Assembly (NCBI RefSeq): GCF_000003605.2
Contig: NW_003107096.1
Coordinates: 73,673 to 96,515 of the forward strand
Direction: 5' to 3'
Source: Saccoglossus kowalevskii
Lineage: Eukaryota; Hemichordata; Enteropneusta; Harrimaniidae
Length of the DNA stretch: 22,843 bases
The position numbers and the translations under genes are program-made. This document shows positions 2,759 through 22,022 of the stretch, in pieces. Within the stretch, counting starts at the first letter, position 1. The number at the start of each line of letters is the position of its first letter. The notes beneath the pieces were generated by a model. It had not been told where the DNA came from. It saw only the letters and a program-made list of their open reading frames with translations, and ran no database searches.

Positions 2759-2824
2759 GCTGTCCAAAATGTAAAGGTAGTAGCCGCAAAGTCAATATGA
2801 ACAAATACTGCAAGAAAGACTATG
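2759..2824 (+). CDS. Netrin, penultimate exon (start of NTR/C345C module)
   Basis: This is an internal exon of a netrin, a secreted laminin-related guidance cue that binds DCC/neogenin and UNC5 receptors (established knowledge). The exon is 66 nt, bounded by the acceptor tttctag and the donor gtaagt. It reads CPKCKGSSRKVNMNKYCKKD followed by Y, with the first codon completed by GC and the last base G left over (a phase 1 intron follows). From memory, human netrin-1 at the same place has a CxxxC pair and then INMKKYCKKDYAVQ, so the match is direct. The CPKC pair and the YC cysteine are three of the six NTR cysteines. Upstream exons (laminin N-terminal and LE domains) are not in the window. Orthology to one vertebrate netrin cannot be decided here. 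Confidence 0.95.
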
Positions 2825-3875
2825 GTAAGTTAGATAATTATTGGATATATTTAGTTTAAGGAAGATGCTTACTCTACATGCCAGACAGAAGTCTCAAAAT
2901 AATTCACACAGCCAATATTTGATAAAAGACATGGGAGAATACAGGCACTGGCAACTGCGGCAAATACCAAAAGGAATGGAATGGTGTTTTGTGTGACATC
3001 TTTTGGTGTGCCATGTACTATTATGTTAGTGTCTGGATGCGCGCAACAAATCCACAATCACATTTTTTCCAGTTGATATCGGTTTTAAAATGTGCTTAAA
3101 ATGTTAAATATGTTTACAGTAGATTGGTTTATGTACTGCTCAGTAGCGTAGATTTGTTTTTGAATGAAAATAGATGAACAAAGATTATCATCATTTATTT
3201 ACATCAAGTTCTACAGAAATTTGAGTCATGATAAAGCTACTGATTGGCTACCGAACCCTAACACCTAACGGTCTGACCAATCAGAAAGCAGCATGTTTTC
3301 AACCTATCAGATTCTGCCTCATACATATACTTCAACTCAACTGAGAAAGTTTTCATGAATATATTGTATACAATTTGTTCAAAATTCTACTACAGTATGT
3401 CCTACTGATATTATTGTGTTGCAGAGGCATCTTTTTGTTTTGAAATTTGCCAATCAAAAAAAAAAGGATTTATATTTATTTTTACGTGTGAGCCAACTTA
3501 AACGTAATGTTTAAAATCACATTTGAGCCCTAAACATGATATATTGAAGAAAAGACAACAATTGCTTGTCCCTTGTATTCGCTAGTGTCTTTCATTTGAT
3601 GAATATGTCATTATTATTCATATTATTCATACTTATCACATTATCATATTAGGTGATATTGTAAAATTTGATAACTTGGAGGGCAGTTACAGTGATGTCA
3701 CTTCATGAATATTGCGCCAAATTTATTTACATTACTTGTAAATAAACTTGTATCACTTACTACAATTTTTTTAAGATTTACGATAAAGACTTTAATTTCT
3801 TAATTGATTAATTTGACAGCCATCACTGTAAAATAATGCCTATGTAATTTCTTTCTCTTTTTCATTCTGTATCAG
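2825..3875 (+). other. Netrin intron within the NTR module
   Basis: This 1051 nt intron runs from GTAAGT to a pyrimidine-rich tract ending ATCAG, and splits an alanine codon after its first base. It contains an 8-bp inverted CCAAT pair (3240-3294) and a TGATGTCA motif near 3693 followed by a TTGCGCCAAAT (E2F-like) string. I see no coding content. Confidence 0.9.
3240..3294. promoter_or_regulatory. Inverted pair of CCAAT boxes
   Basis: CTGATTGG at 3240-3247 and CCAATCAG at 3287-3294 are perfect reverse complements separated by 39 bp. Each is a CCAAT box, the NF-Y site (established knowledge). They could also be the decayed ends of a small inverted-repeat insertion, since the flanks show partial further symmetry. 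The location is the netrin NTR intron. Confidence 0.25.
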
Positions 3876-4192
3876 CCGTTCAAGCGAATATATTATCTCG
3901 GGAGCAGACAACTGATTGGGTCAAGTTCACAATCAATGTAATGACTGTATATAAGAAGGGACAGAACAAAATCCGCAGAGGTGATCAGATATTATACGTG
4001 CATAACAGAGATCTAACGTGCAAATGTCCAAAACTGCGACTTGGTCGAAAATACCTTATTATCGGCAACGACAACAAAAATCCCAATCAAAATGGTCTTT
4101 TAGCTGACCACAAGAGCTACGTGATTCCTTGGAGGGATGACTGGAACAGACGAATGAGAAAATTCCAACGAAAAGCTAGGAAGTCATGCTAA
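3876..4192 (+). CDS. Netrin, terminal coding exon (NTR domain and stop)
   Basis: This final coding exon (317 nt including TAA) supplies most of the NTR/C345C domain, which in netrins contributes heparin/matrix binding (established knowledge). It opens behind the acceptor ATCAG with CC, completing GCC, and then VQANILSREQTTDWVKF. Diagnostic netrin strings are KIRRGDQILY, DLTCKCPK, KYLIIGN and VIPWRDDWNRRMRKFQ, matching remembered human netrin-1 segments RIRRGDQSLW, DIACKCPK, KYLLLGN and VIQWRDTWARRLRKFQ in order. The tail KARKSC is basic and ends in cysteine. The CKC pair and this last cysteine complete the six NTR cysteines. The frame is intact with no breaks. A methionine-initiated reading from 3941 is an artefact: the true frame enters by splicing at 3876. 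Confidence 0.96.
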
Positions 4193-5325
4193 AAAAAAAA
4201 TGAAAAAAAAAAAAGAACTATTGGCTCTTGGATTTTGGTTAAAAATGAAAAGAAAAAAATAATTTTATAATGTTATGTAAATTTTCAATCTATATAAAAG
4301 ACGGAAATTTTAGGTGCAACGTATTTTAAATCTGTATCCTGTAAAACAACAGAATTGTCACACATTTACACTGTTTGTAGAGTCTACCTTTGACCTTTAC
4401 CCCAGAAGGGAAATTCCATACAGGCTTACCACATCCCTTTCTGATTAACAACATCCTGTATAGCTAGGATCAGTAACCAATTGTATAAGGTCACACCCAC
4501 CTACAAACACATACATACACAAAATAGTCATGATATTCATACTGTACATTTAATGAGCCATATTTCAGTTAGAAGTGTTCCAATACACGTTTTGAACATA
4601 TTTGAAGAAAGTTGATTCCACAGAAAAATTACATGTCATGAAATCGTTGTCTTTTTTTAACAAGTTCATGCATGATCTTTTTCTTGGCTGTGTTTATAAG
4701 CATCCTAGATTTTGAGGATTGATTTAAGTGGGACAAAATGAAGTGCTAATGTACGATTTCAATTATTCTGTGACATGTACGTGTACCCCACCGACATATT
4801 TCGCTGGGTATTGGCTGGTCAGCATATATCCTAGTTTAAAGCTTGGATCAAAACAAAGTGTCTACTCACACATCTCTGAAACATTATTTGTAATATATAA
4901 TTGTGAAAGCATGATTTATTTTTGTTCCTTCGCTCAGTTCCAGAGGGAACCTTTTTTCAGGACACGGAGTAATATTAGATTTGATTATTAATATTTGATT
5001 CCAATTTATCATCCCTACCCATTTCAACATTTTTGGGATATGTAGGAAAATGAAAGTGGAAATTGGTAAAAATAATCATTATGTTAATGGTTTTATGTCA
5101 GTAAGCAGTGGAGGGTGGGTCTCATTATTGAGCAGTGTGGTCACATGCATTAGAAGCTATCACTGTCAACAGTTGTGTAAAATGCAGATTTTCTAAAAAA
5201 AAAACACATAGTAATGTTGTATTTTCCCCTATATTTATAATCTAACATAAAGCTAACTTAAGATATGGCAAACGTATTTCCTGAGTTGATCTAAATATCC
5301 TGTTGTGTGATTCATTGCAATCTCC
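4193..5325 (+). other. Netrin 3' UTR and downstream sequence
   Basis: The sequence following the netrin stop is AT-rich and non-coding, starting with an A-rich stretch (4191-4250). It includes a GGGAAATTCC string at 4408-4417 (a NF-kappaB consensus) and a degenerate DR1 just before it. No AATAAA occurs close to the stop, so the 3' UTR is probably more than 1 kb long. An open frame at 4728-4991 has no recognisable content. Confidence 0.5.
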
Positions 5326-5554
5326 CTAACTCTTTGAGTGCCAGATATTTTTCCTGTCCAAAATTCAGTGCAAAGTTGTCACATTTTGTGAAATTGTCAA
5401 CATTTAGACCAGACAGACAGTTTCACATATTGCTTTTAATTTTTGATGAAAAAAAACTTTAGCTATTTTTTCCACATTTCATGTGGAGAGGAACAGAGTG
5501 TAAAAAATCATTTTGTATATGGTGTCAATTTGACAATGGCGCTTAAAGGATTAA
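5326..5554. mobile_element. TTAA-type MITE, second family
   Basis: This 229 bp unit has imperfect terminal inverted repeats. The left end is CTAACTCTTTGAGTGCCA and the right end, read in reverse complement, is TTAATCCTTTAAGCGCCA. The outer tetranucleotides are CTAA (a decayed TTAA) and TTAA. The TTAA plus pyrimidine start resembles piggyBac-like non-autonomous elements (established knowledge), but the interior differs from the 1291 family. There is no coding capacity. The diverged ends suggest an older insertion. Confidence 0.65.
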
Positions 5555-8040
5555 GATACTGAAAATTCTGAACAATATTACAAATAATGTTGCATTTGGG
5601 ATAGCAATACAATACAGTTATAAACAGAGACAGTTATGGAAAACGTTGTTAAATGTTTTGCTTCATTTAGGCATAGATACAGTCAATTAAATAAAAAAAA
5701 AAAACTTATTTCACAAATTTGATGAACATTTGATTAATTGAGCAGTATTGTTTTGCGTTTTTGTATTTTTATGCAATTTCGGTGAGACAAAGTACGAAAC
5801 AAATGTTACAACCTAACTTGTCTCCGCGTAGACGAAATATCATAATGCATAGAATTTATCGTTATGTTGTTTACTTCTACTCACCGATATATATTTGACG
5901 ACTATCTTCACGAAGGTGGACTGTAGAGTGATTGTGTATATTTATAGTGTACTATGGTAGTGTTGGTGCTAACTTAATCTCATCTACTGCCAGGTGCTTT
6001 TCTCGTACAATAACACTTTAGTTCTGTATAATGTCAAATTTGAATGCATATTATTTACCAGACTGAGCAGTGCTGAGAAGTGGTTAGTCACGGCACTGGA
6101 ATTATAACTCTTTGGACCAGTTTCTCTGGTCCTGCCAAACTAACTTCTATCAAAAAAGTACATACATGTCTATTAATGAGAAAAAGGTGATCATGATTGT
6201 TTTAATTCTTGTCAATTTCTTTTTAACAGAATTGTACCATTTCATCGTGACCTCAAGTCCTATAACGGACACATCAATTTTTTTTTTAAAACTAAAATTC
6301 AATGATGGAATTATAGTTAATTTATACAGCTATATCAAAAGTCCATGTATTTTACTAGGTATTGAGTTTAATGTGAGAATATGTAAAGTAGTCAGTTTAG
6401 CTTAACCATTTGTTTACCTTATCCTGTGACCTAGGATACATTGCATAATTTTCATACAAGAATTGTGACTGGTTAACAGCATGAAGCCTTTTGAAGTTGG
6501 CTCAGATCACCATCACTTAGCTGTAATACCAAAACAATGAAATACAATCAGGGTCTGGATCAGTTCAGTTTTCACACTTCCCAAACAGTAGACATACTTA
6601 CAAATTTCAAATCCTTGCCACTGGAAAATAGATGTTATTTATACAATGTGCACACCCCAGCTGGGTACCTATATTAGAATTTTGAAAGCCAGAAAATAGA
6701 TTTATAAATATACAAAATGAAATCATTTGTTTTATCTACTGGGGGGAAAAAAACTTTAAAAAAAAGCAGCAAAGCCAATTTTTGTGAAAAGTCTGTTACT
6801 TACAGAATATATACTTAGTACGTTTAATTTTATACAATGGTCACAATGAACAATAATATAAGTAAAACAAAAATAGAATCCCCCAAAATACTAACTGTAT
6901 CAATTTTATTTAGTTTTATAAACACAACACGGCATGGGACATATATTAAACATATATTTTACACCATTAAATAATTTAAAACTAAGTTTAGTATATTTGC
7001 TTACAGGTGCTTTGTCCATTGAAAGCAAAATGTACTTCCAGAGCAAAACTATGTGCACAGGAAAAAAATGTTTATATTTTTTGTTTTTGTAACACACCAA
7101 AGTGGTTGTGTATTCAATGAAAGCTGTAAAAAGCAATATATAAAAAAATTGAAAAGTTACAGCTAGCACAGTTTTATGTATATAGCACAGATAAAAAAAA
7201 ATAATAAATAATTAAGTATTGAACTTTAAGATGTCTTGATGTGCAAGATTTATTTGAATCACATGAAGTTAATTTCTAATAAACTTCTTTATATTAAGAA
7301 TATATAACAACTGTCAGTGTACAGGTATATCAAGGAGTATTTTCCATTTAAACATGAAACTATTAGGAATGGGGTAAATCCATGTGATCAACTCACTCTA
7401 TTGTCACTCTTATAACGAAATATTTCACTTACTGTAATGGCTGCCCGACAGATTTTCTGAGATATAACAGTAATCTCAATACCAACCTCAGTCTCTGCAT
7501 TAACAAGGGTAATTCTCAGTGTATAGTTTTCAGAAGCCAAAATAGCGTGAGGAGATTTTCAGTTTTGTCAGGAAGTTTATGTTGAATTTCCAAAAATTTA
7601 GAAAGTGTAAAAATGAACTGTTGAAGCAGAGTTTCCTATTTTTGCGTGTAGATTCAACAAGCACTGTATAAGATATTTTTTTTTTCTCTCATTGAATTGT
7701 GTTGTATGTTATTTATTGGTGAAAGAAGTGGTGAGGGAAAAAAGGAGTTATGGAGAGAAACATTAAATCGTTACTTTTCTCAAATGTAAATAAGTCGTGT
7801 TTTTGACATTTTATTACAACTATATTAAATGTAGCTTCAATTCATGGAGATTACAGAAATAAAGATATGTTTAACCTTAAAATATAAGCAAAGTGTAATT
7901 TATAAATGAATGTGTGTTACTGATGTGTTCATCTTTCTCTCACTTTCTGAACAGATGTCAGACGAGACCTCAGGAAATGTCTGAATGCATATGTGTTGTT
8001 CATATAAAGGTTGAAAAAAATTTACCAATGCATGCATGAA
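5555..8040. other. Non-coding, AT-rich intergenic stretch
   Basis: No convincing gene on either strand. Candidate poly(A) signals for netrin on the + strand are AATAAA at 5690-5695, followed by an A run that may itself be genomic, and AATAAA at 7858-7863. A short hairpin (ggaccag with ctggtcc) lies near 6114-6132. Open frames at 6112-6405 (+) and 6906-7169 (-) read as translated AT-rich DNA and are not accepted as genes. Confidence 0.5.
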
Positions 8041-8054
8041 ATGGTTGAAAAATG

Positions 8055-8067
8055 CCCCCCCCCCCCC
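8055..8067 (+). repeat. Poly-C tract (13 C)
   Basis: An uninterrupted run of 13 C lies in otherwise AT-rich DNA. The complementary strand is a G run that could form a quadruplex (established property of G runs). Two longer runs of the same type occur at 11584-11599 and 18714-18727. Confidence 0.95.
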
Positions 8068-8149
8068 ATACTTAGAGTATTCACACCAAATCTAATCAAA
8101 ATCTGAGAACTGTTAGAACACATAGAGGGGAGCAAAAAGAGAAGAAGAA

Positions 8150-8690
8150 AAAAGTCACCATGGTGGCTATTTGAATCAAATCTGAAAAATGCCTTGCATC
8201 AGCATCTCTGAGTAAAAACAACTTTACTTGAACAAATTGATTAAAACATGTCTGAAAAATGATTAAGGAAATATGAAAGTATGGCTGCCAGACAGCCATT
8301 TTGAAGCAAAACACAAAATAAACTGACAAAAGTATGAATGTATGTTCAAATATTGTATTTATATGTTTTTGACAAAAAATTGATTCCAGTCTGTTACTAT
8401 TTCTTTGAAATCCAAAGAAAAGAACATGCAACCCATTATGTTTTGCTTTTGAACACAATTTATACAAAACATGTAAAAGTATATCTAAGAAACGCTTTGA
8501 AACAAAATTGTGAAACAAAATGAAGTAACCCACCATGAGTGGTGTCAATGCCAAGTTTAAATGAAATTGGCTCAGGCATGCATGAGAAGCAATTGATAAT
8601 TTATTGAAACATTGAATTTTGTTTTTTGTTTTTTTTGGACAAAAATGGTCGTCATACGCACAGAAGGATCAATGAAACCAAAAACGCAAG
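8150..8690. repeat. Old interspersed repeat with roughly 130 bp internal period
   Basis: Landmarks repeat in diverged form: a (g/c)(t/c)(c/g)attttgaa-type string at about 8163 and 8294, a catgtctgaaaaatg-type string at about 8196, 8250 and 8573, and a gaaattggctcaggcatg string near 8565. The same landmarks occur at 11750-12060. The large open frames here (8096-8554 minus, 8338-8523 plus) are by-products of the repeat. I cannot assign a superfamily. Confidence 0.45.
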
Positions 8691-8699
8691 TTCACCTTA

Positions 8700-11580
8700 C
8701 AGATTATGTTCAGTAGAAATTAATAATAGACATTTGAAGTAACCAATAGACCAAATAATGCTACTCAGTCAACTTTGTCAATACTAGTGCTGGAAATGAT
8801 GATTAAAAATCGATAAGCTACAGAGACATATGAACAAAGTACATATTTTACCCGTAAGACTCTTTTGACGCTCTCAGAGAACAATAACTCATTGAAATTA
8901 GGTCAGCCTGTTTTCATCAGACATGTCAGTGAAATGTCATACAGGTTAGGAACAAATGATGGTTATATTTGGAGACTGACAAAATAAGTTGTACATACGT
9001 CATAATTCACAAGAACTACATTACATAATATCCATCATGATGAATGTTTCATCTTCATTAAAGACTGCCTCCACCAATTGGGTCAAAGACAATTTGTTAC
9101 ATTCATCCTTGGCTGGTTTTATCATAACAATTTTTAAATTAGCATTCACTGATGTTCCTATGCTTGCTATGTGTTTTTATTTGGCTCAACTCTTCCGACT
9201 GTCCTTGCATTTTATTACCAAGTCTTGTAATTCTCATCAGTTGAGAATCTTTTCAGTCGTTAAATTTATCTTCCTCAGCTTAGAACTATTGTGAAAGTAA
9301 TTTGTTATGTATTACACCACTACATTATGTTGTACTGCACTCCATAAGTCAGACTCTATCCATTGTTTTCTTATGGTTATAAAACTCAAAAATTAGTTAT
9401 TGTTTTTATCTAATGATACAATCTGAACAGACCACCTCCCCTTTCCCCCAAGCAGTATCAACCTGAAAATTGCAATAAATTTGGGGCCATCAACAACTTG
9501 GACTAGGACAAGTCCCCCTAGGACCTTCCAAAATATTTATTATCAGAACAAATTTAATTCTGCTGAATTATTCAGTTTTGGTAATTTATTAAAATATTTA
9601 CAAACTACAAGTCCTGGTTGTATTAATAACTCTGAAACCTAATTTTTGTGTTTTTTGAAGAGAAATAGGTCATAATTGATAAAGCCAAATAAAATACCAG
9701 TATGTGGACTTCCCTGAAAAAGACAGAAACTATGCAACTAGGATCCTGAAATTATTGTAAACTGCATTGACAAGTAAATTATGAAGCAGTGTCCTATCAA
9801 TTCACAGTCACCCTTATGAACCGAGCACAGCCATAAATGGCTGTCAATCAGCCCTGACAAATCAAACATATAAAATACGAACCATCCTGAATTATCTTTG
9901 CGTGAACTTTCAACAAAATCTCTGAGATACACATGTCTGTATCCAACAGATGGTTGTAAAGCAATCAACAAGTACAAGTTCCAGTTCCAGTTAAACTCTG
10001 TGGATGGTTGCAAACCAATCAACAAGTCAGTGTTTACATACTTTGTCCAGACAGAGACTAAATAATCAGAATAGCACCTATTTGAAAAGTCACTCTATAA
10101 CTGACACATTTAAACAGTTCCGTTATATTTCTTTACAGCCTGCTTGAACTAAATGAACAATAATTATGCATTAAATGAATCTACCACAGTGACAACCCCC
10201 CTGACAGTAACTGATCATATGAATCCGAAACAAATGTACTTAAAAATTCATAAGGGATCCATTTTTGATAAATTTGCTTGATTACCTATGATCATTTCTC
10301 ACCTGATATCACATTATGTAATGACAACAATATTTCAATCTCTAAACAACTAGGGAATTAAAAAAAATCATGCATTACAAGTTCCCCCCCTCCCACCGAT
10401 TGTTGAATGCATGCATCCACAGTGAGACGTAAAACAGCACAGGTTACATAGTCTGATATCACATACTGCATTTTTGTATTACATGTGCTACCAAACCCGT
10501 GTGGAGCTTCAATGTATTGTGTACAGCCCAATAACTCTGTACTATAATTCAAAATGATTCATGTCGGCAAGCTTATGTGTGCAAATGGTTGAAATTATTT
10601 TTTTTTTCAAAATTTTTGCACACATGACAAACGAGCATAATGCACTGCAATGGCGTGAAATGGTACACTGCCACACCATCAAAATTTGCATAATCTCGAG
10701 AGTGAACATCTGGACGTTTTTACCACCTGATAACCATCACCAGTGAAAACAAGGGTTGAAAACTGTCATAAAACTATACATTGGGCTAGTTATTGAGACT
10801 CCCCTGAACAGTATAACAAGATTACCCCTACATGTACAACAAATTGAAATTTGGTTGTTTAGGATTTCTGCCATTTTCACTGTTTTTTTCAACCAGTGTT
10901 CCACAGCAGCTCACACAGAGCCCATAGTATGTATGTTAATATCTTCATTCCTGACAATAGGTCCATGCAATAATATATTAATCGATAATTTTACCGATAG
11001 TCACAGTTTCAACACTGCTCATCGCATTTTTCGGATGTGGAATAGGCACATGATAAATAAATAAATAAAATAATTCATATCTTTTTTAGGTTGAGATTTA
11101 AAACGCAGGCGATAGTCTGCTGTTTCTCTAAACCTGTACAGCAAAAATTTTGTTTTCTATTTTAAAATATTTGTTGGAAATTACTCTCCAAATTTGAATA
11201 GACATTTTCTTATAGGTTGGCATGCCAGGGAAACACTTCTTGCTAGCCAACCAGTATTCTTGCATACAAAAAATACAGTGCTCTAGCTCATAATATATTT
11301 ACACAACATTTTCCAAATGTTTCTAATATTGGCATACATTATACAATAACAGTCCATCCTCCTACAAGCCCTGAACCCAAAATTTGGACAAATACACGTC
11401 ATATAAGGACAGAAAATAAAGTTTCTCTATAACTGATGCTGATGAACGAGATGACAAAATTTTGTTTGAAATTCAAATTTATACATTATATATAAAAAAC
11501 ATTTATGGATGAACAAGACTTAAAAAAGAAACGGTCCTTGTTGGTAGTTTTTCAAAATCATTTCTTATGAGGTAAGCACT
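8700..11580. other. Intergenic stretch without a convincing gene
   Basis: AT-rich, with no splice-flanked coding segment I trust. It contains a minus-strand mini-frame at 9021-9125 (see findings), a short direct repeat at 9949-10027, a C-rich run at 10384-10390 and a TAAA run near 11055. Open frames at 8989-9294 (+), 9738-10025 (-), 10358-10552 (-), 10561-10746 (+) and 10756-11064 (+) show no motif or family resemblance. Confidence 0.45.
9949..10027. repeat. 25-bp direct repeat, 54 bp period
   Basis: The 25-bp string starting gatggttg and ending caatcaacaagt occurs at 9949-9973 and 10003-10027 with 23 of 25 positions identical. The spacer contains the doubled hexamer gttcca. It is a small local duplication with no evident function. 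Confidence 0.8.
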
Positions 11581-11583
11581 AGA

Positions 11584-11599
11584 CCCCCCCCCCCCCCCC
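11584..11599 (+). repeat. Poly-C tract (16 C) followed by GAAAA
   Basis: A run of 16 C immediately followed by gaaaag, very similar in design to the tract at 18714-18727, which ends ccgcccgaaaaaa. Run length should be treated with caution because homopolymers are error-prone in sequencing. Confidence 0.95.
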
Positions 11600-11739
11600 G
11601 AAAAGTGGATTATGTCTGAAAGCACACCTATTGGTGTGGTAAACTAGTAAATTACCATAATTAGTTGAGAAGTGTTTGCATGTCTTTATTAAAGTCTATT
11701 ATGACTGACACTCATATGACAGAGTCAGTTTACTTATGC

Positions 11740-12130
11740 ATTTTTTGTGTTGAGATTGGTCAAGGCATGTTTGAGATACAGCCCTAAAACAGCATTTATT
11801 AAATGGCGATTTTGAATCCAATCAGAAAAAATTATGTGTATCACAAACAAAATACCTGCAATAGACATACCAAGTGTGCTCAGAAATGGTCGAAATGCTT
11901 GATTTTTATGATTTTTTCCAGCATTAAAATGGTCACCATTTGGCCATTTTAAATTGCATTACAAAACAAATGCCAAATGCGTGTGTATATATATGACATG
12001 TGTTTTTGAATGTAATTAGCTCAGGCGTGTCTAGGATACCGGTGTACACGAATGCACAGATGCACTTAGCCTGAGGTAAAATTATATGTTTTCATTTTGG
12101 ACTATGTCCAAACGGGGAATAAAAATGCAA
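11740..12130. repeat. Second locus of the roughly 130-140 bp interspersed repeat
   Basis: Shares landmarks with 8150-8690: ggtcaaggcatgtttgagata near 11758 and agctcaggcgtgtctaggata near 12018, plus ggcgattttgaatccaatc near 11802 and ggccattttaaattgc near 11942 (140 bp apart). Copies are heavily diverged. Like the first locus, it starts close after a poly-C run. Confidence 0.45.
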
Positions 12131-12500
12131 AAATTGAAAAACAAATACAAATTCCAACAAATACATGACAAAGTACAAATAAAAAGAAAAGGCAATGAAC
12201 CCTACTCTGGCAGCATTTTGAATTGAAAAATTGTCAAATTAAATAACAACAGAAGTTAGTAATACAAAAATTAGTTTTTCCCATTATAACTTGTAAAATA
12301 ATAATTAACGTTTTGAGGGCAACTTTTGCAGGAAAATTATGTGTTAGCCACATCCAGCCTTAAACTCTACATAAGTACAAGGGAATTGGAATTTTAAATT
12401 CTCATTTTTATTATCCGTAACCATTAAAGAAATCCTGCAAATTGGAAAAAAATCTCAAGTAGCCATTTTCATTATAAAACTTGCGAAATAACATTTCACA

Positions 12501-12550
12501 NNNNNNNNNNNNNNNNNNNNNNNNNNNNNNNNNNNNNNNNNNNNNNNNNN
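12501..12550. other. Assembly gap (50 N)
   Basis: Fifty consecutive N separate two AT-rich non-coding flanks. The round length suggests a placeholder gap of unknown true size, so the netrin to syntaxin-8 distance is approximate. Confidence 1.
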
Positions 12551-14663
12551 GCAGGCTTTACAATGCAGCAGTGAACAGTAAAGAAATTACAAACATGTCG
12601 GCACCATTAACGAAATGTTGAAGAGACTCTTTAGTATTCTATCCACAGCTTGAATAAATGAACTGTTTTACACCTATGATGATTGAACCGACAGGGGATT
12701 TGCTTTAATTTCTCTGGGGTTACTAACTTTAAGCCTTGCTTGGAATTAAAGGATTGGTATAATCTCATTCCTGTCACAATACAACATTTGCAAAATACTA
12801 AAGTAAGCTGAGAAATAATCCCGGGCCCACCTGCCTGTTATTTGTACACTAACAAAACTACAAATAATAAAGTCATTGTATTCAAAAACCGCAGAGAATC
12901 AGATAATTACAGTAATCCAACACTTAGATTCGTTACAGCAACACAATTTAGTCAAGTCTGATTACATGTTGTGAAATTTAAATTTCTGATGATGATATCA
13001 AAATATAAATCTGTACATTTTTGCTTACGAGATAACATGACGACTGGGTTAATGTACAAACGTGTTACAGAATAATTGAATTTCCAGCGATTACATTCAT
13101 ACTCACATGAATCCAAATAACACGATCTGAATATCATGTAAACCTTTTGTCAAGATTTATGCAGGATGTAATTTACTACAACGAGTTCAATATTATATAT
13201 AATTTTGTATTTTATTTTTGATTTCATGGACACATCATTCTGAAAACTGAATTATTTGCACAAAATTTTCAAAATTTAAATCGGTTTCATGCCCTCCCAC
13301 ATTCAGCGGTATTCCGTCTGCCTCGGCTATTAAACGAGATACTATTGTGAGTACTACGTGAACACATTGCGGTGTCAGCAAAGGTGAAGTACACAAGGGC
13401 ATACAAATTAAACTACATACAGTTACTGAAAATCTGATGAAACAACCACGCTGCAACGTCAGTGCACGGCTGTAAAATTATAAAATCAACAATGCATTAT
13501 CAAAAACATTGACCAGAAAAACATACAAAGTTTTCATAAAAAAAAAAAGATTTAATTCATGCCAGTCAGTCAGTCAACCTTGTTAGCCGCCATTTTGAAA
13601 AATTAGGCAGCATCTCGATTCAGATTAGATTGACAATACATTGGGATTTGTTATAAGAGAAGTTGTACAGTCACACATTATAAGATTATGTCTAAGACTA
13701 TCATACAGTAGAACTGTTATGATATGTTATGGTAGTTTGAGAATAACCACATTATTGTACAACTTCGGGCCAAAAAAAAATAATCGACAATATAACACTC
13801 TGTCCACTTCCGATTTGTTTTGAGTTGTCTGAGACTGACATACATTGTACACCATTCTAGGTCTTAGTGACTCAAAGTTAGAATGTGTATCAAGACATCA
13901 TCTGTTAAGTGATCTAGCTCAGGTCACAACAAAATAAAACAAGCAGAAATGATTCACTTCGAATTAACAAAAGATTAAACACAGCACCAAACTGAAAAAG
14001 GTCAAATCAAGTACAATAGCACTCAGGTCATAGGTTAAACAGACAGCTAAATTCCATAGGTAACTACATCAGGTTTTGATTCTAAATTACAACTTACATT
14101 CAATTATGAAGAAAGCGATTTGAGGTTAATTGTGTCCCAAGAAAATATTTGTGATCGTAGGTTTTCATGGAAGTCATTGCATAGTCTCAAATACTTCACC
14201 TTTGCTTTCACAATTTATCAGAGGAATAACTCTTCGGAAAAAACACTTTGAAAGTTACAGAAGATACTTTTCACATTATGGAATATAATAAATAACATAC
14301 ATGTAAATCAAATCGCAATTTTAACGCAGCAACATTATTTAATGTTCAAGTGTGTTGCAACACAGCTGCCACGTTTCCTTCTCAGCGTAATCTGCGCTGG
14401 TAATTTCAATTTTTACGTTCCTATATAGCTGGAAAATAAGTCTTTAGTTCGCCTTTAATACATAGTTATTGTAATTAGGGCTCGATAGGATGTAAGAAAT
14501 GCAATTTGTAAAGACAACGTGGATGCATGGCGATTGTAAAGTTCTGATATCCCATGTCCAACGGTAACAACATAGACTACACCTGTATCACATTGTGCTC
14601 TACCTGTCTCAGTTTATAGTTATAGCTGCCCATATATTGATGAATAACATGTCCATCCAGTAG
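12551..14663 (-). other. Syntaxin-8 3' UTR and downstream sequence
   Basis: Lies downstream of the syntaxin-8 stop on the minus strand. The nearest clear minus-strand AATAAA below the stop is at 13211-13216 (TTTATT on the plus strand), which would give a 3' UTR of roughly 1.4 kb. A CCGCCATTTTG string (YY1-type) lies at 13587-13597 next to a triple CAGT. Open frames at 12952-13137, 13235-13456 and 13641-13823 have no recognisable content. Confidence 0.45.
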
Positions 14664-14731
14664 TCAATGAAAAGGCACAACAGCAACGATGACAATGGCA
14701 ATTAGAAGCAGCACGATGATCACCATCATAG
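14664..14731 (-). CDS. STX8: Syntaxin-8, terminal coding exon (membrane anchor)
   Basis: This is the last coding exon of a Qc-SNARE of the syntaxin-8 family. In animals it works with syntaxin-7, Vti1b and VAMP8 in endosomal fusion (established knowledge). On the minus strand, acceptor ATTGCAG is followed by CT (completing an alanine codon) and MMVIIVLLLIAIVIVAVVPF, then H and TGA. This is a single hydrophobic C-terminal anchor of about 19 residues with only three residues after it, as expected for a tail-anchored SNARE. From memory, human syntaxin-8 ends MIMVILLLLVAIVVVAVWPT plus N, aligning without gaps including the VAVxP motif. The exon is 68 nt, intact, and in frame with 16453-16554. It converges on netrin, with stops 10.5 kb apart. 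Confidence 0.94.
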
Positions 14732-16452
14732 CTGCAATTATAAAAAATCATATATTTATTTATTTTTTAGTCAGATATAATAAATAATGTGAAATTCTAG
14801 ACAATTGATTAAACATGTGGTGCTGACATATAGTGCATTTCGCTGAGCGGCCATCTCTCTATCAAATTTAATTTAATGCACTATCATGAACCATGCCTGG
14901 TTGAACACAAGCACCTGCGGTCTTTAACCAAGGTTTCTTCAAAGTTACATTCGTTAGTAAATAAATCTCAGAGATTGGATGTAACCTTCCCACCAAGTCT
15001 GTGGCACACTCACTCGGGATAGAGGTCAACCCTGTTTAATGTTCATATGGAAAAATTAAATTTTAATCTAAGAAAAAAACATTTCCAGCTACTTGCATAC
15101 AATTGTTCTAAATACACACCATGTGATTTGACTTAGTACCATGTGTTTACTTCATTTGAGGTCAGTATCACTTAGATAGAAAAAATCCAAAAATTACAGA
15201 ACATGACCCTTTACCTGTGTATGGCTACTTTTTAAGGTAGAAGCCTACTCATGATTTCAAAAACCCAGAATTTATTCATTTTCCAATAAATTGTACTTCT
15301 GGGCAATATAAGGATATTGTCCTAAAAAAAGTTTGGGGTCACCAGCTTAATTTTCAAGAAAATTATGTGGCAAGTGGTAACTTTGGCAGTGAGTATTATA
15401 AGGTGCTTTAACCATAGGTTCCTATGGTCGAGATAATATGTCATATTTTAAACTGTAGGCTGACATAGGCTGATATTTATTATATATTGTTAATGATGAA
15501 GTACTTTTTGTTGTTCTCATACTTCAACAAATCTATAAAATTTATGGAATTGTTCTAAAAATAGTGATTTTTGAAAAAAAAAAATTAGAACAAATTTCTC
15601 AAAATATGTCACTGTAACACACAAGAGAATGCTAATTTATGGTGCCATGGGACAATAGCTTCACAATTTTACACAATAAACCAATGAACACTGTCATGTG
15701 ATTTATTACCAACTTTCTCCAAAATTATGAGTAGGCATCTACCTCAAGACACTCTGCTGAAATACCTAAGAGCAACCAAACTACTTTGCATAATTTTTGA
15801 ATCAAAATTGATGTCATACTTAGGAATTAACACTGGGGATTTTACAAAGTCATTGTTGACATGTAAACTACTGGTAGTTTGAGTGCCATGACTTTGTTCT
15901 TTGTTATTTTTATAATAGAAACTTTCACTCAGGAAATTAAATAATGTCACTTTCTTTATGTTTACAAATGTGATAAGATGAAAAAAATAAAAGATTATTT
16001 GTTTGGAGAAAATCAATGTTCTTTATGGAGTAAACACATGTTTTGACTAATGTCAACACTGACATGAAGTTCATATCTAAAACTGCATCGAATAAGTTAC
16101 ATGGGACATATAGTGTACTGAACTCATTAGATACCATGTTATCTTCAACTTTATTTGGAGGAAAGAAAAAGAAATTCCAAACATAAATGTTTGTATCTGA
16201 ACTATCCAAGTGATTTACACTGAACTGGACACAGCTTGTCCTAGAATGCTTTGGTGTCCACAGCAAGTGGGATTCTGGTTCAAATGCAATGAACTCCTTT
16301 ATGTGTTGACCATAAGCAGTTTTTATTTTCTTCTTCTCATTGTACATTATATCCCCCCTGTACACAGGAGCTGTCATGTTTCGCACCCAGCATGATTTCC
16401 TCATACAGTTTGTTCATAGTCCATAATGTATGACACATGTATAAGCACTTAC
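14732..16452 (-). other. Last intron of syntaxin-8
   Basis: This 1721 nt intron is bounded on the minus strand by GTAAGT and TTGCAG. It contains the 516 bp TTAA-flanked element at 15232-15747, about 30 percent of the intron. Open frames at 15744-16016, 15937-16404 and 16210-16395 are intronic or overrun the neighbouring exon and carry no recognisable protein. Confidence 0.9.
15232..15747. mobile_element. TTAA-flanked inverted-repeat element, 516 bp
   Basis: The left end is TTAA then GGTAGAAGCCTACTCATGAT. The right end, read in reverse complement, is TTGA then GGTAGATGCCTACTCATAAT. The terminal repeats therefore match in 18 of 20 positions, with a TTAA/TCAA target duplication. TTAA targets point to piggyBac or Kolobok (established knowledge), and the GGTAGA start differs from the other two MITE families here. 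No open frame codes a transposase. It lies wholly in the last syntaxin-8 intron. Confidence 0.75.
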
Positions 16453-16554
16453 CACAGTTTCCACTCTTCTTATCCACTTTTTTAATGTGCTTCGTTTCCT
16501 TCAATAATCTTTGGTCTGTACGACCTATGTGACTTGTTAAATCATCAATAATTT
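16453..16554 (-). CDS. STX8: Syntaxin-8, penultimate exon (C-terminal half of SNARE motif)
   Basis: This 102 nt exon on the minus strand sits between acceptor TTTTCAG and donor GTAAGT. It encodes IIDDLTSHIGRTDQRLLKET and then KHIKKVDKKSGNC, with the first codon (E, split as G|AA) and last codon (A, split as G|CT) shared with neighbours. From memory, human syntaxin-8 reads EIIDDLANLVENTDEKLRNE then TRRVNMVDRKSASC, so the family call is strong. It covers the SNARE heptads after the central ionic layer. The zero-layer glutamine (QNE in human) falls at the end of the preceding exon, which I could not find. The basic run KHIKKVDKK precedes the anchor, as in other SNAREs. A longer antisense frame (16337-16567) over it is misleading because it reads through the donor. 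Confidence 0.94.
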
Positions 16555-16845: not shown

Positions 16846-17365
16846 CACACTGAGGAGTGTGTACCATACAAGACACTGTGAGATCAGCAATCACACACAC
16901 TGAGGATTGTGTACTATACAAGACACTGTGAGATCAGCAATCATACACCGAGGATTGTGTACCAAACAAGACACTATGAGATCAGCAATCATACACTGAG
17001 GATTGTGTACCATAGAAGACACTGTGAGATCAGCAATCATACACACTGAGGATTGTGTACCATACAAGACACTGTGAGATCAGCAATCATACACTGAGGA
17101 TTGTGTACCATACAAGACACTGTGAGATCAGCAATCATACACTGAGAATTGTGTACTAAACAAGACACTGTGAGATCAGCAATCATACCAGAGGATTGTG
17201 TACCATACAAGACACTGTGAGATCAGCAATCATACACACTGAGGATTGTGTACCATACAAGAAACTGTGAGATGAGCAATCATACACACTGAGGATTGTG
17301 TACCATACAAGACACTGTGAGATCAGCAATCATACACACTGAGGATTGTGTACCATACAAGACAC
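16846..17365. repeat. Minisatellite, 10 full units plus a partial one (48-50 bp)
   Basis: Ten nearly identical units and an eleventh partial one follow the pattern CACTGAGGATTGTGTACCAT, ACAAGACACTGTGAGATCAG, CAATCATA. Units come in two lengths: about 48 bp, and about 50 bp when a CACA doublet precedes CTGAGG. Single substitutions mark some units (e.g. GAGATGAGC in the ninth, ACTATGAG in the third). The last unit ends abruptly in CACCCCCC. It lies upstream of the syntaxin-8 penultimate exon, hence in its intron if the gene continues to the right. No coding frame is maintained, because unit length is not a multiple of three throughout. Confidence 0.97.
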
Positions 17366-19499: not shown

Positions 19500-19680
19500 T
19501 TAACCTTTTCACCATTATTTTCCTCTTTTAATCACAAATTAGTTAACTTTATAGTCTGCACTTTTTTTCAGAAGATTGGGGAAAAAAATGGCAAAATGTT
19601 TTAGGTAAAAACTGAAATTTGACTCAAATTTTGTCTATTGGCTCCAAAATTAGGGTTCATTTCCAGAAATATTAAAAAAT
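19500..19680. mobile_element. Second copy of the 1291 MITE family, reverse orientation
   Basis: Starts TTAACCTTTTCACCA, the same terminal repeat as the element at 1291-1447. The segment at about 19605-19675 (GTAAAAACTG through TTTCCAGAAATATT) matches the reverse complement of the interior of that element closely. About 95 bp between terminus and shared interior are absent from the 1291 copy. No matching right terminal repeat is visible; the right end dissolves into an A-rich run. It is probably truncated on that side, or the 1291 copy is a deletion derivative. Confidence 0.7.
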
Positions 19681-19804
19681 AAAAAATAAAAAAAAAACAG
19701 AATTTTTTTTTATGATATTCACCTTTGACTCTGCATATAGCAAAGTAATTTCTACTTTTTACAATGTATTGTATTTACCCTTAGGTCCATTAAATTCACT
19801 GCAA

Positions 19805-19872
19805 TGTGTAATACACAGAGTCAACATGGCGAATAATATAACATTGTGTTATTTACCATGGAAATTCATCAA
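19805..19872 (+). repeat. Left arm of a 68-bp inverted repeat pair
   Basis: Starts TGTGTAATACACAGAGTC and ends GAAATTCATCAA. The reverse complement lies at 21955-22022 with 66 of 68 positions identical. The arm contains a short palindrome ATAACA-TTG-TGTTAT. Similarity stops sharply on both sides of each arm. Confidence 0.92.
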
Positions 19873-19882
19873 TATAGTAACA

Positions 19883-19971
19883 TAAAATCTGTATTAGAAC
19901 AATTTGAACAATTGAGAACCAAAAATTCACCATTTCTCATATGTGTAGATTCTCTAATCAGGGATGAGAAT
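19883..19971 (+). repeat. Degenerate direct repeat, first copy
   Basis: Two exact strings mark it: TAAAATCTGTATTAGAA (17 bp, 19883-19899) and CAGGGATGAGAAT (13 bp, 19959-19971). Both recur in the same order at 20856-20872 and 20917-20929. The second string ends just before the polypyrimidine tract of the exon at 19990, so repeat-derived sequence may supply its acceptor region. Confidence 0.6.
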
Positions 19972-19989
19972 GAGAATTTTAATTTTCAG

Positions 19990-20091
19990 GTGAAAGTAAA
20001 GTAGCCGGAGCCCAGGCTGACATCATTAAGGACTTCCAAGTCTATGTCCAAGCCATTGGTTCCGCTGGGCGACAGGACAGCTCACTCCGAG
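19990..20091 (+). CDS. Probable orphan internal exon, unknown protein
   Basis: I do not recognise this protein. A 102 nt segment is flanked by a strong acceptor (TTTTAATTTTCAG) and a donor (GAG|GTAAAA). It is open only in the frame with two leading bases and one trailing base: ESKVAGAQADIIKDFQVYVQ, then AIGSAGRQDSSLR. It is visibly richer in G+C than the flanks, with C/G-rich third positions, and reads like genuine protein (mixed helix- and strand-forming residues). The other two plus frames and the minus frames contain stops. No partner exon is seen nearby. It may belong to a gene whose other exons are outside the window, or be a captured or stranded exon, since it sits inside the 68-bp inverted repeat pair. 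Confidence 0.55.
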
Positions 20092-20288
20092 GTAAAATAA
20101 AAATGCATTGTATTAGTTGAACATTAAGCAGCGACTTAAAAAAGAAATATGCCAATGAAAAGTTCGTCCATCTCAAGGCAACCTTCTCGAAATGTTTTTT
20201 TTTTCTTCATGCGTGTTCACGCCACGCATCCCCGAGAACTGTAGTAGATCAAATCGTTACAATACAGACACTGCGCCTTTTCCGGGAC

Positions 20289-20498
20289 CTAGCACTTGCC
20301 GATGAAGTCACTAAATTTTTCAGTTATCACTTCATATTTCTTCTCGATTCGCACGGTCAAAGTCACTTCCTTGTCAAGCCATGCCCAACAAAATTTGTTC
20401 CTAATGTCTTTATCGATCTCTTGCACGGCTGACTCATCTTTTGCAACCAATTTCACCATTACCGCAGCAAGAAACTTGTAAACAACGATCCAGCGCAA
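20289..20498 (-). CDS. Small hypothetical protein in a CpG-rich patch
   Basis: A minus-strand frame of 69 codons, or 56 codons if read from the inner ATG at 20456 (context gcggtaATGg). From the inner start it reads MVKLVAKDESAVQEIDKDIR, with later segments WAWLDKEVTLTVRIEKKYEV and ITEKFSDFIGKC before the stop. It is charged and soluble-looking, with no signal peptide from the inner start. The surrounding 20160-20560 is conspicuously CpG-rich compared with the rest of the window, as expected of an unmethylated promoter or first exon in invertebrates. I recognise no family. It may be a complete microprotein, a first exon with a donor inside the frame, or a gene fragment. A shorter + strand frame (20296-20481) is its shadow. 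Confidence 0.4.
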   Translation of the reverse strand: MRWIVVYKFLAAVMVKLVAKDESAVQEIDKDIRNKFCWAWLDKEVTLTVRIEKKYEVITEKFSDFIGKC

Positions 20499-20867
20499 CT
20501 AACAATTGAAACAATAATGGCGCCGTTGGTGAAAAGAAAAACGAAAGCTCTTCACTGATCGTATTTATAAGTTTTGTTAAAGATATTTTACTGTATTTGT
20601 ATCTGACACTGATAACACATCAATTGCTAACGCTGTTTCAGTTGACAATGCATTAAGATTGATAGTAATCTCTTTGTTTGATTTAATTGTTTTGTTTTTG
20701 ACATTGATTTTACGTAAATTCAGCATATACATGGAGTAAATGAACTTGAATACAACTGTGATAAGAGCATTTTATGCAAGTCTGTATTCCTTCTGGTGAG
20801 GACATCAGTTGTGCGGCTTAGCAGAGCACAATTCAAACATAAAACCTTTTTATTCTAAAATCTGTAT

Positions 20868-20911
20868 TAGAAGCCATATAATACAATGCAACAGAGGGGA
20901 TATGGCTTCTA
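20868..20911. repeat. Perfect 12-bp inverted repeat (hairpin)
   Basis: TAGAAGCCATAT at 20868-20879 and ATATGGCTTCTA at 20900-20911 are exact reverse complements around a 20 nt loop. It is not followed by a T-run. It overlaps the second copy of the degenerate direct repeat and may be part of that element. Confidence 0.85.
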
Positions 20912-21049
20912 TTAGACAGGGATGAGAATTCCCTGTGGATCTGTGGAATTCCGTGGATTTCTAAGCCCCAGGGGTCTATTTTCTGAAACGTCCAAGACCA
21001 AGGAGAAAATTTTAGGGGGGGGGGAATAAGAATACAAATCTTGTTTATT

Positions 21050-21270
21050 CACCGGAAGTAAACATGCTGTTGGGTCATTGTTGTCAGCTGCATAAGGCCT
21101 GTATCAGTGTATGGTCGAAGGGAGGCTCGCGGCGGCGTCTCCAATGCGGAATGTTCGCGACTCTTATCAGTGCAATCGTAAAATCTGATGTTGCTTCCAA
21201 GTGTTCAAAGTAATATGTAACGATTAACATGATTGGCTGGGTTAGTTCTGACGGGCCAATTATGCGCAAT
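21050..21270. promoter_or_regulatory. CpG-rich, promoter-like patch with ETS and CCAAT motifs
   Basis: ACCGGAAGTAAACA at 21051-21064 joins an ETS core (CCGGAAGT) to a forkhead core (GTAAACA). CpG dinucleotides cluster at about 21113-21165 (ctcgcggcggcg, gcggaatgttcgcgac), and GATTGG and CCAAT boxes follow at about 21232-21260. A + strand mini-frame starts at 21111 (MVEGRLAAASPMRNVRDSYQ, 25 codons) and contains a possible donor, ATC|GTAAAA. Together this resembles a promoter with first exon, but no second exon is identifiable. Confidence 0.3.
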
Positions 21271-21954
21271 CATCCATAACAGTTAGTGTTGGTAACATGG
21301 TCAGATAGTCCAGCACAAAACTTGTATTTATAAAACAAAATGTACACTCATTTACCACTAGAGATCTCTCAAGAAAACATAGCTATCATAACCATCCCTG
21401 TAAAATATTACAATCATGATTTCAACAACAAAAAATTGTGTTTTCTTTACAGTTCATTCAAAACAAGATATGATATTAAATCCAAGCATAGACTGAATTT
21501 AATTTGTTATTGAATTATACAGTATGAAACTAAAAAAAAAATAGAATATTCTCTTCCTAAACGTTTAGAAAAACTTTACTTATAGAATGTACAAGTTCAA
21601 ACTAAAATTTGAACATCAGATCACTAGGCTGACTTTGAACTATTTCCTATCCACATTTATTTTGTCAAAATTGCTAAAATTGCAACAAATGTAAACCTAT
21701 CACTTATAAGTTTTGAAAGAGAGAGAGCTTTTGGGTACAACATGTGTATACCCACAGTAAGGCTGAATCAAACTTCATTTACCTGAGGGATTGTATGGAT
21801 GCTTAATTTAACAGCCAAAAAATAGGTGGTCACTGAAGTTGATTCAAAGATCATAAGGAAGTGGGCCCTCTAGTGACTAATAATGGAAATGTGTGGGTGG
21901 TACCACTGTATATTGATTTTCTTACACACAAAATATAAATATATAAAATACATG

Positions 21955-22022
21955 TTGATGAATTTCTATGGTGAATAACACAATGTTATATTATTCGCCA
22001 TGTTGACTCTGTGTATTACACA
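21955..22022 (-). repeat. Right arm of the 68-bp inverted repeat pair
   Basis: The reverse complement matches 19805-19872 with two mismatches. Arms are separated by 2,082 bp. Outer flanks (…cactgcaa on the left, gattactt… on the right) give no target-site duplication that I can see. Confidence 0.92.

Follow-up and report, generated by a model that had tools for sequence, protein, structure and literature searches.

The stretch of DNA analysed here, which we call the window, comprises 22,843 nucleotides (C173:73673-96515) of a contig of 501,143 bases in an assembly of 572 Mb and 4,830 contigs. It contains the 3' end of a netrin gene on the plus strand and, on the minus strand, the 3' end of a gene identified by sequence comparison as syntaxin-8 (STX8), along with repeats in a presumed intron of the latter; the other netrin exons and their nearest recognised neighbours on the left lie outside the window on the same contig. 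Positions below are those of the window unless the contig is named.

2759..2824, plus strand: second-to-last coding exon of netrin, in which the NTR module starts, with a donor in phase 1 (AG/GT borders; tblastn with human NTN1)
3876..4192, plus strand: last coding exon of netrin with the stop, NTR/C345C module (splice border and stop; Pfam NTR and PDB netrin-1 when joined with the preceding exon)
4193..14663, no strand: stretch between the stop codons, with the 3' UTRs of both genes and a gap of 50 N (about 10.5 kb, no gene found)
12501-12550: the 50-N gap between the genes
14664..14731, minus strand (read 14731-14664): last exon of STX8, membrane anchor and stop (acceptor and stop; alignment with human STX8)
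16453..16554, minus strand (read 16554-16453): second-to-last exon of STX8, C-terminal half of the SNARE motif (Pfam SNARE; the genome's best STX8 place)
16846..17365, no strand: tandem array of 10.6 copies of a unit of about 50 bp (92% matches), in what is presumably an STX8 intron
19805..22022, no strand: mobile-element-like insertion bounded by 71-nt terminal inverted repeats that are 96% complementary, in the same presumed intron
C173 54929-55909, plus strand: large N-terminal exon of netrin (66.6% identity to human NTN1 9-339)
C173 63837-64025, plus strand: EGF exon of netrin (89% identity to human NTN1)
C173 70262-70411, plus strand: EGF exon of netrin (84% identity to human NTN1)
C173 about 12-18 kb and about 27-30 kb, left of netrin: two stretches of PhoPQ_related exons

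Netrin is a main axon-guidance cue. The identity of the plus-strand gene as a netrin of the netrin-1/UNC-6 type is firm on sequence similarity. When joined, its two exons in the window (2759-2824 and 3876-4192; 127 residues) match the Pfam NTR family with an E value of 1.7e-33 and netrin-1 in the PDB (8snp) with 5e-43. A tblastn search with human NTN1 placed the remaining exons to the left of the window, on the same strand of the same contig, and with a Laminin_N match of E 5.0e-81 the modules that define membership of the netrin type, Laminin_N, laminin EGF and NTR, are all present. When used as a query, the N-terminal exon found a full-length match at one genomic place only, which is the exon itself (2.0e-233); the runner-up in the genome search reached 40% identity over residues 7-141 only (E 1.2e-23). 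There are nine Laminin_N places in the genome at E <= 1e-5, in a family that also takes in laminins. Because there is a single full place for the netrin N-terminal exon, and because its identity to human NTN1 is no more than 66.6%, the genome is not vertebrate-like and its invertebrate origin, as surmised in an earlier note made from the sequence alone, is well supported. A bindin core elsewhere in the assembly points to an echinoderm, and we take the animal to be probably one.

Each of the two minus-strand exons carries an open frame with splice sites, and the C-terminal membrane anchor is STX8-like; joined (16554-16453 and 14731-14664), they match the Pfam SNARE family at 1.8e-8. Over the 56 residues used, 28 of 54 positions are identical to human STX8, with a z score of 30.8 (500 shuffles), compared to 4.6-8.2 for the same residues against references for STX6, STX7, VTI1B, STX1A and VAMP8. 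Thus, the C-terminal half of the SNARE motif, together with the anchor, is nearer to STX8 than to the five other SNAREs, and the identity is firm as judged from these residues. The match to syntaxin 8 in the PDB (1gl2_D) is weak (E 0.46) and ranks under that of a designed protein (0.05). In a search of the whole genome with human STX8, the exon at 16453-16554 was the top place (E 0.007), the other two places listed being at E 3.07 and 5.64. The 3' ends of a netrin and a syntaxin-8 accordingly face each other at this locus, in agreement with the earlier description.

Position 16554, the stated limit of the pair, marks where the second-to-last STX8 exon begins; the gene itself does not end there. 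On the contig we covered 301,143 of the 501,143 bases (216-416 kb lying outside), about 71 kb of which are N (54,661 in the first 216 kb and 16,199 in the last 85 kb). A search of these 301 kb with STX8 residues 1-179 yielded seven matches, the best at E 5.8, among which the missing part was not found. Nor was it found when the genome was searched three times with human STX8, once with the entire protein and once with each of two portions of it: apart from the exon already described, these searches gave five places with E values of 0.35-9.2; for the 216-416 kb segment, the search for STX8 consisted of such genome-wide six-frame searches only. A 15-kb run of N (C173 96516-111559) adjoins the end of the window, and residues 1-179 may lie in this run or in the 216-416 kb segment, or may be too divergent. 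As these residues are missing, the whole STX8 gene is not shown at the locus.

The missing residues, as well as the many N runs in the scaffold, including the 50 N between the genes and the 15 kb after the window, bear on the idea that the pair is an assembly artefact, that is, that a netrin contig was falsely joined to a contig with a 3' fragment or a pseudogene of STX8. We consider such a join highly improbable: both STX8 exons retain open frames and splice sites, a six-frame search easily misses short divergent exons, and a false join is unlikely to reproduce by chance the neighbour found in human.

Between the two stop codons, the GC content is 0.327 (4193-14672), and the longest open frame spans 190 codons (8096-8668, minus strand), for which Pfam gave nothing at E 0.1. 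The whole window contains no Rfam family at the gathering score and no tRNA by ARAGORN. With Rfam, ARAGORN and Pfam on the longest frame, we could detect no gene across these approximately 10.5 kb, in accord with the earlier impression that nothing convincing separates the pair. Beyond the STX8 exons, an exon-like open reading frame at about 19988-20090 was considered as a further gene and rejected because it sits within the inverted-repeat element at 19805-22022, and the portion of the element around it (query about 151-287) is shared with other places in the genome at 81-90% identity. Parts of this element are widespread in the genome (1317 first-look candidates, of which 40 were scored), and the element itself contains a 56-residue reading frame on the strand opposite to the exon-like one, with no Pfam family above the cut-off. 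The presence of both the tandem array and this element in the presumed STX8 intron indicates that at least parts of the intron accept insertion. Separately, an 87-nt inverted pair (1337-1423 and 19605-19691; 83% complementary, 18 kb apart) flanks both of the facing gene ends and probably consists of two copies of one interspersed repeat.

In the human genome, NTN1 lies on the plus strand and STX8 on the minus strand, tail-to-tail. A clinical gene list gives the human order as MYH10, PIK3R6, PIK3R5, NTN1, STX8, WDR16, GLP2R (PMC5791184), and a study in dogs names STX8 together with NTN1 and WDR16 in the vicinity of a single locus (PMC4333733). Thus, NTN1 adjoins STX8 in human 17p13, and likewise, together with WDR16, at the dog locus, and the pair described here resembles this arrangement: netrin and STX8 have the same neighbour and the same orientation as in human. 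For human, the gene list documents the adjacency; strands are stated neither there nor in the dog study.

Assuming random gene order among 20,000 genes, the chance that a pair named in advance is adjacent in this orientation is about 2.5e-5 (approximately 1 in 40,000), a bare estimate that is weakened by the fact that the match to human is what drew attention to the pair, yet the window shows one adjacent pair only. Given this chance and the single adjacent pair visible, common descent is the best reading, and for the comparison of this animal with human and dog we hold with considerable confidence that the pair was inherited. The existence of one netrin N-terminal place and one outstanding STX8 place in the genome also speaks for inheritance. 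That the adjacency arose twice, once in the line leading to this animal and once among vertebrates, appears unlikely in the face of the same estimate, even though no outer neighbour is known to be common and netrin (NetA/NetB) and Syx8 are on different chromosomes in the fly.

The similarity to the vertebrate locus could not be extended beyond these two genes. In human, WDR16/CFAP52 follows STX8 and PIK3R5 precedes NTN1, whereas here CFAP52 is on another contig, C2524 (9 of the 18 matches listed, the best at 6.4e-40), and PhoPQ_related exons lie to the left of netrin. On the 301 kb covered of the netrin contig, E values for CFAP52 go no lower than 3.6, and the 514 bp upstream of the CFAP52 start codon (C2524:21619) contain no STX8 first exon by eye. 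A three-gene block of netrin, STX8 and CFAP52 was thus not found. On the other side, the nearest recognised exons belong to PhoPQ_related (PF10142), not to PIK3R5; the two stretches of such exons are apparently a tandem pair, and in the interval from there to netrin further genes may have escaped detection. The PI3K_1B_p101 family (PIK3R5/6) has no match in the genome, a result that is uninformative because 14 of 14 controls were likewise without a match. Overall, the stretch common to human and this animal looks short, consisting of netrin and STX8 alone. The proposal of a very old microsynteny block is accordingly supported as regards the descent of the pair and not supported as regards a larger block, with CFAP52 elsewhere and a different recognised gene on the left.

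For an inherited two-gene, tail-to-tail neighbourhood that goes back to the ancestor shared with vertebrates and has been kept by netrin regulation, we see about even chances. Netrin being developmentally regulated, its distant enhancers would be situated between the two genes and within the STX8 introns, a placement that we propose tentatively. STX8, a housekeeping SNARE, would then be a bystander, the removal of which would cut netrin off from its enhancers, and the netrin and STX8 proteins need not work together. Casting netrin as the target and its neighbour as the bystander would fit the gene types and the spacing, and the explanation that we favour, with a confidence somewhat short of even, is that the pair was retained for the sake of netrin enhancers located within STX8 or past it. 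The finding that the block extends on neither side, with CFAP52 elsewhere and a different gene on the left, counts against this explanation, as does the missing part of STX8. That the pair represents a regulatory block inherited from the ancestor of deuterostomes or of bilaterians, locked since before the echinoderm-chordate split with STX8 carrying the netrin enhancers, is conceivable and rather doubtful.

Plain inertia after common descent, whereby an ancestral pair survives unselected in slowly rearranging genomes, is nearly as likely as the bystander mechanism, although it, too, falls distinctly below an even chance. Only two genes are in common, both outer flanks that were found differ, the presumed STX8 intron has accommodated repeats and insertions, and no direct sign of constraint was obtained; the retention of the pair in both lineages since the echinoderm-chordate split argues in the opposite direction.

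The bystander explanation has published precedents. A study of conserved blocks describes cases, such as the sparse block wnt7-atxn10, in which the retention of an unrelated neighbour is attributed to intronic elements that regulate a developmental gene (PMC8851819). The netrin-STX8 pair, apparently sparse as well, resembles the wnt7-atxn10 case of that study in that a developmental gene adjoins an unrelated one. Blocks of the wnt7-atxn10 type are characterised by regulatory elements and by conservation in multiple phyla, whereas the comparison of netrin-STX8 concerns gene positions in this animal and in vertebrates. The same study also reports high gene density for most non-paralogous blocks of bilaterian age kept in ecdysozoans and lophotrochozoans, with stronger co-expression in dense blocks, which counts against a bystander pattern (PMC8851819). 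Furthermore, the method of that study requires at least three genes, so that a two-gene pair would escape its list (PMC8851819). According to another study, conserved pairs known from earlier work fall within TADs in sea star and sea urchin (PMC13317027).

Among titles and abstract beginnings, we found no paper with netrin-STX8 gene order as its topic, and in the main text of PMC8851819 and PMC13317027 netrin and STX8 are unmentioned. The pair may be present in published tables of conserved pairs. Most likely, netrin-STX8 is a further example of a known phenomenon, that of ancient microsyntenic pairs, and it would exceed the known type only if the pair turned out to be retained in further phyla, with netrin under the control of STX8 introns. 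If the pair has indeed been retained since the echinoderm-chordate split, distant control of netrin would be one likely reason, and the STX8 introns would be a place to seek netrin enhancers. Such control would also bear on association signals inside STX8, for example at the dog cancer locus in the study cited above (PMC4333733).

Elsewhere in the assembly, exon-like pieces of receptor guanylyl cyclases lie far to the right on the netrin contig (C173 about 424-439 kb and 459-485 kb), with a Guanylate_cyc match of 2.6e-9 and ANF_receptor matches of 0.0022 and 9.7e-5, both under the cut-off. Bindin, an echinoderm sperm protein, is represented by a single bindin core (PF02084) in the genome, at C2594:88011-88148 on the minus strand (34.1 bits, cut-off 22; E 8.7e-6).
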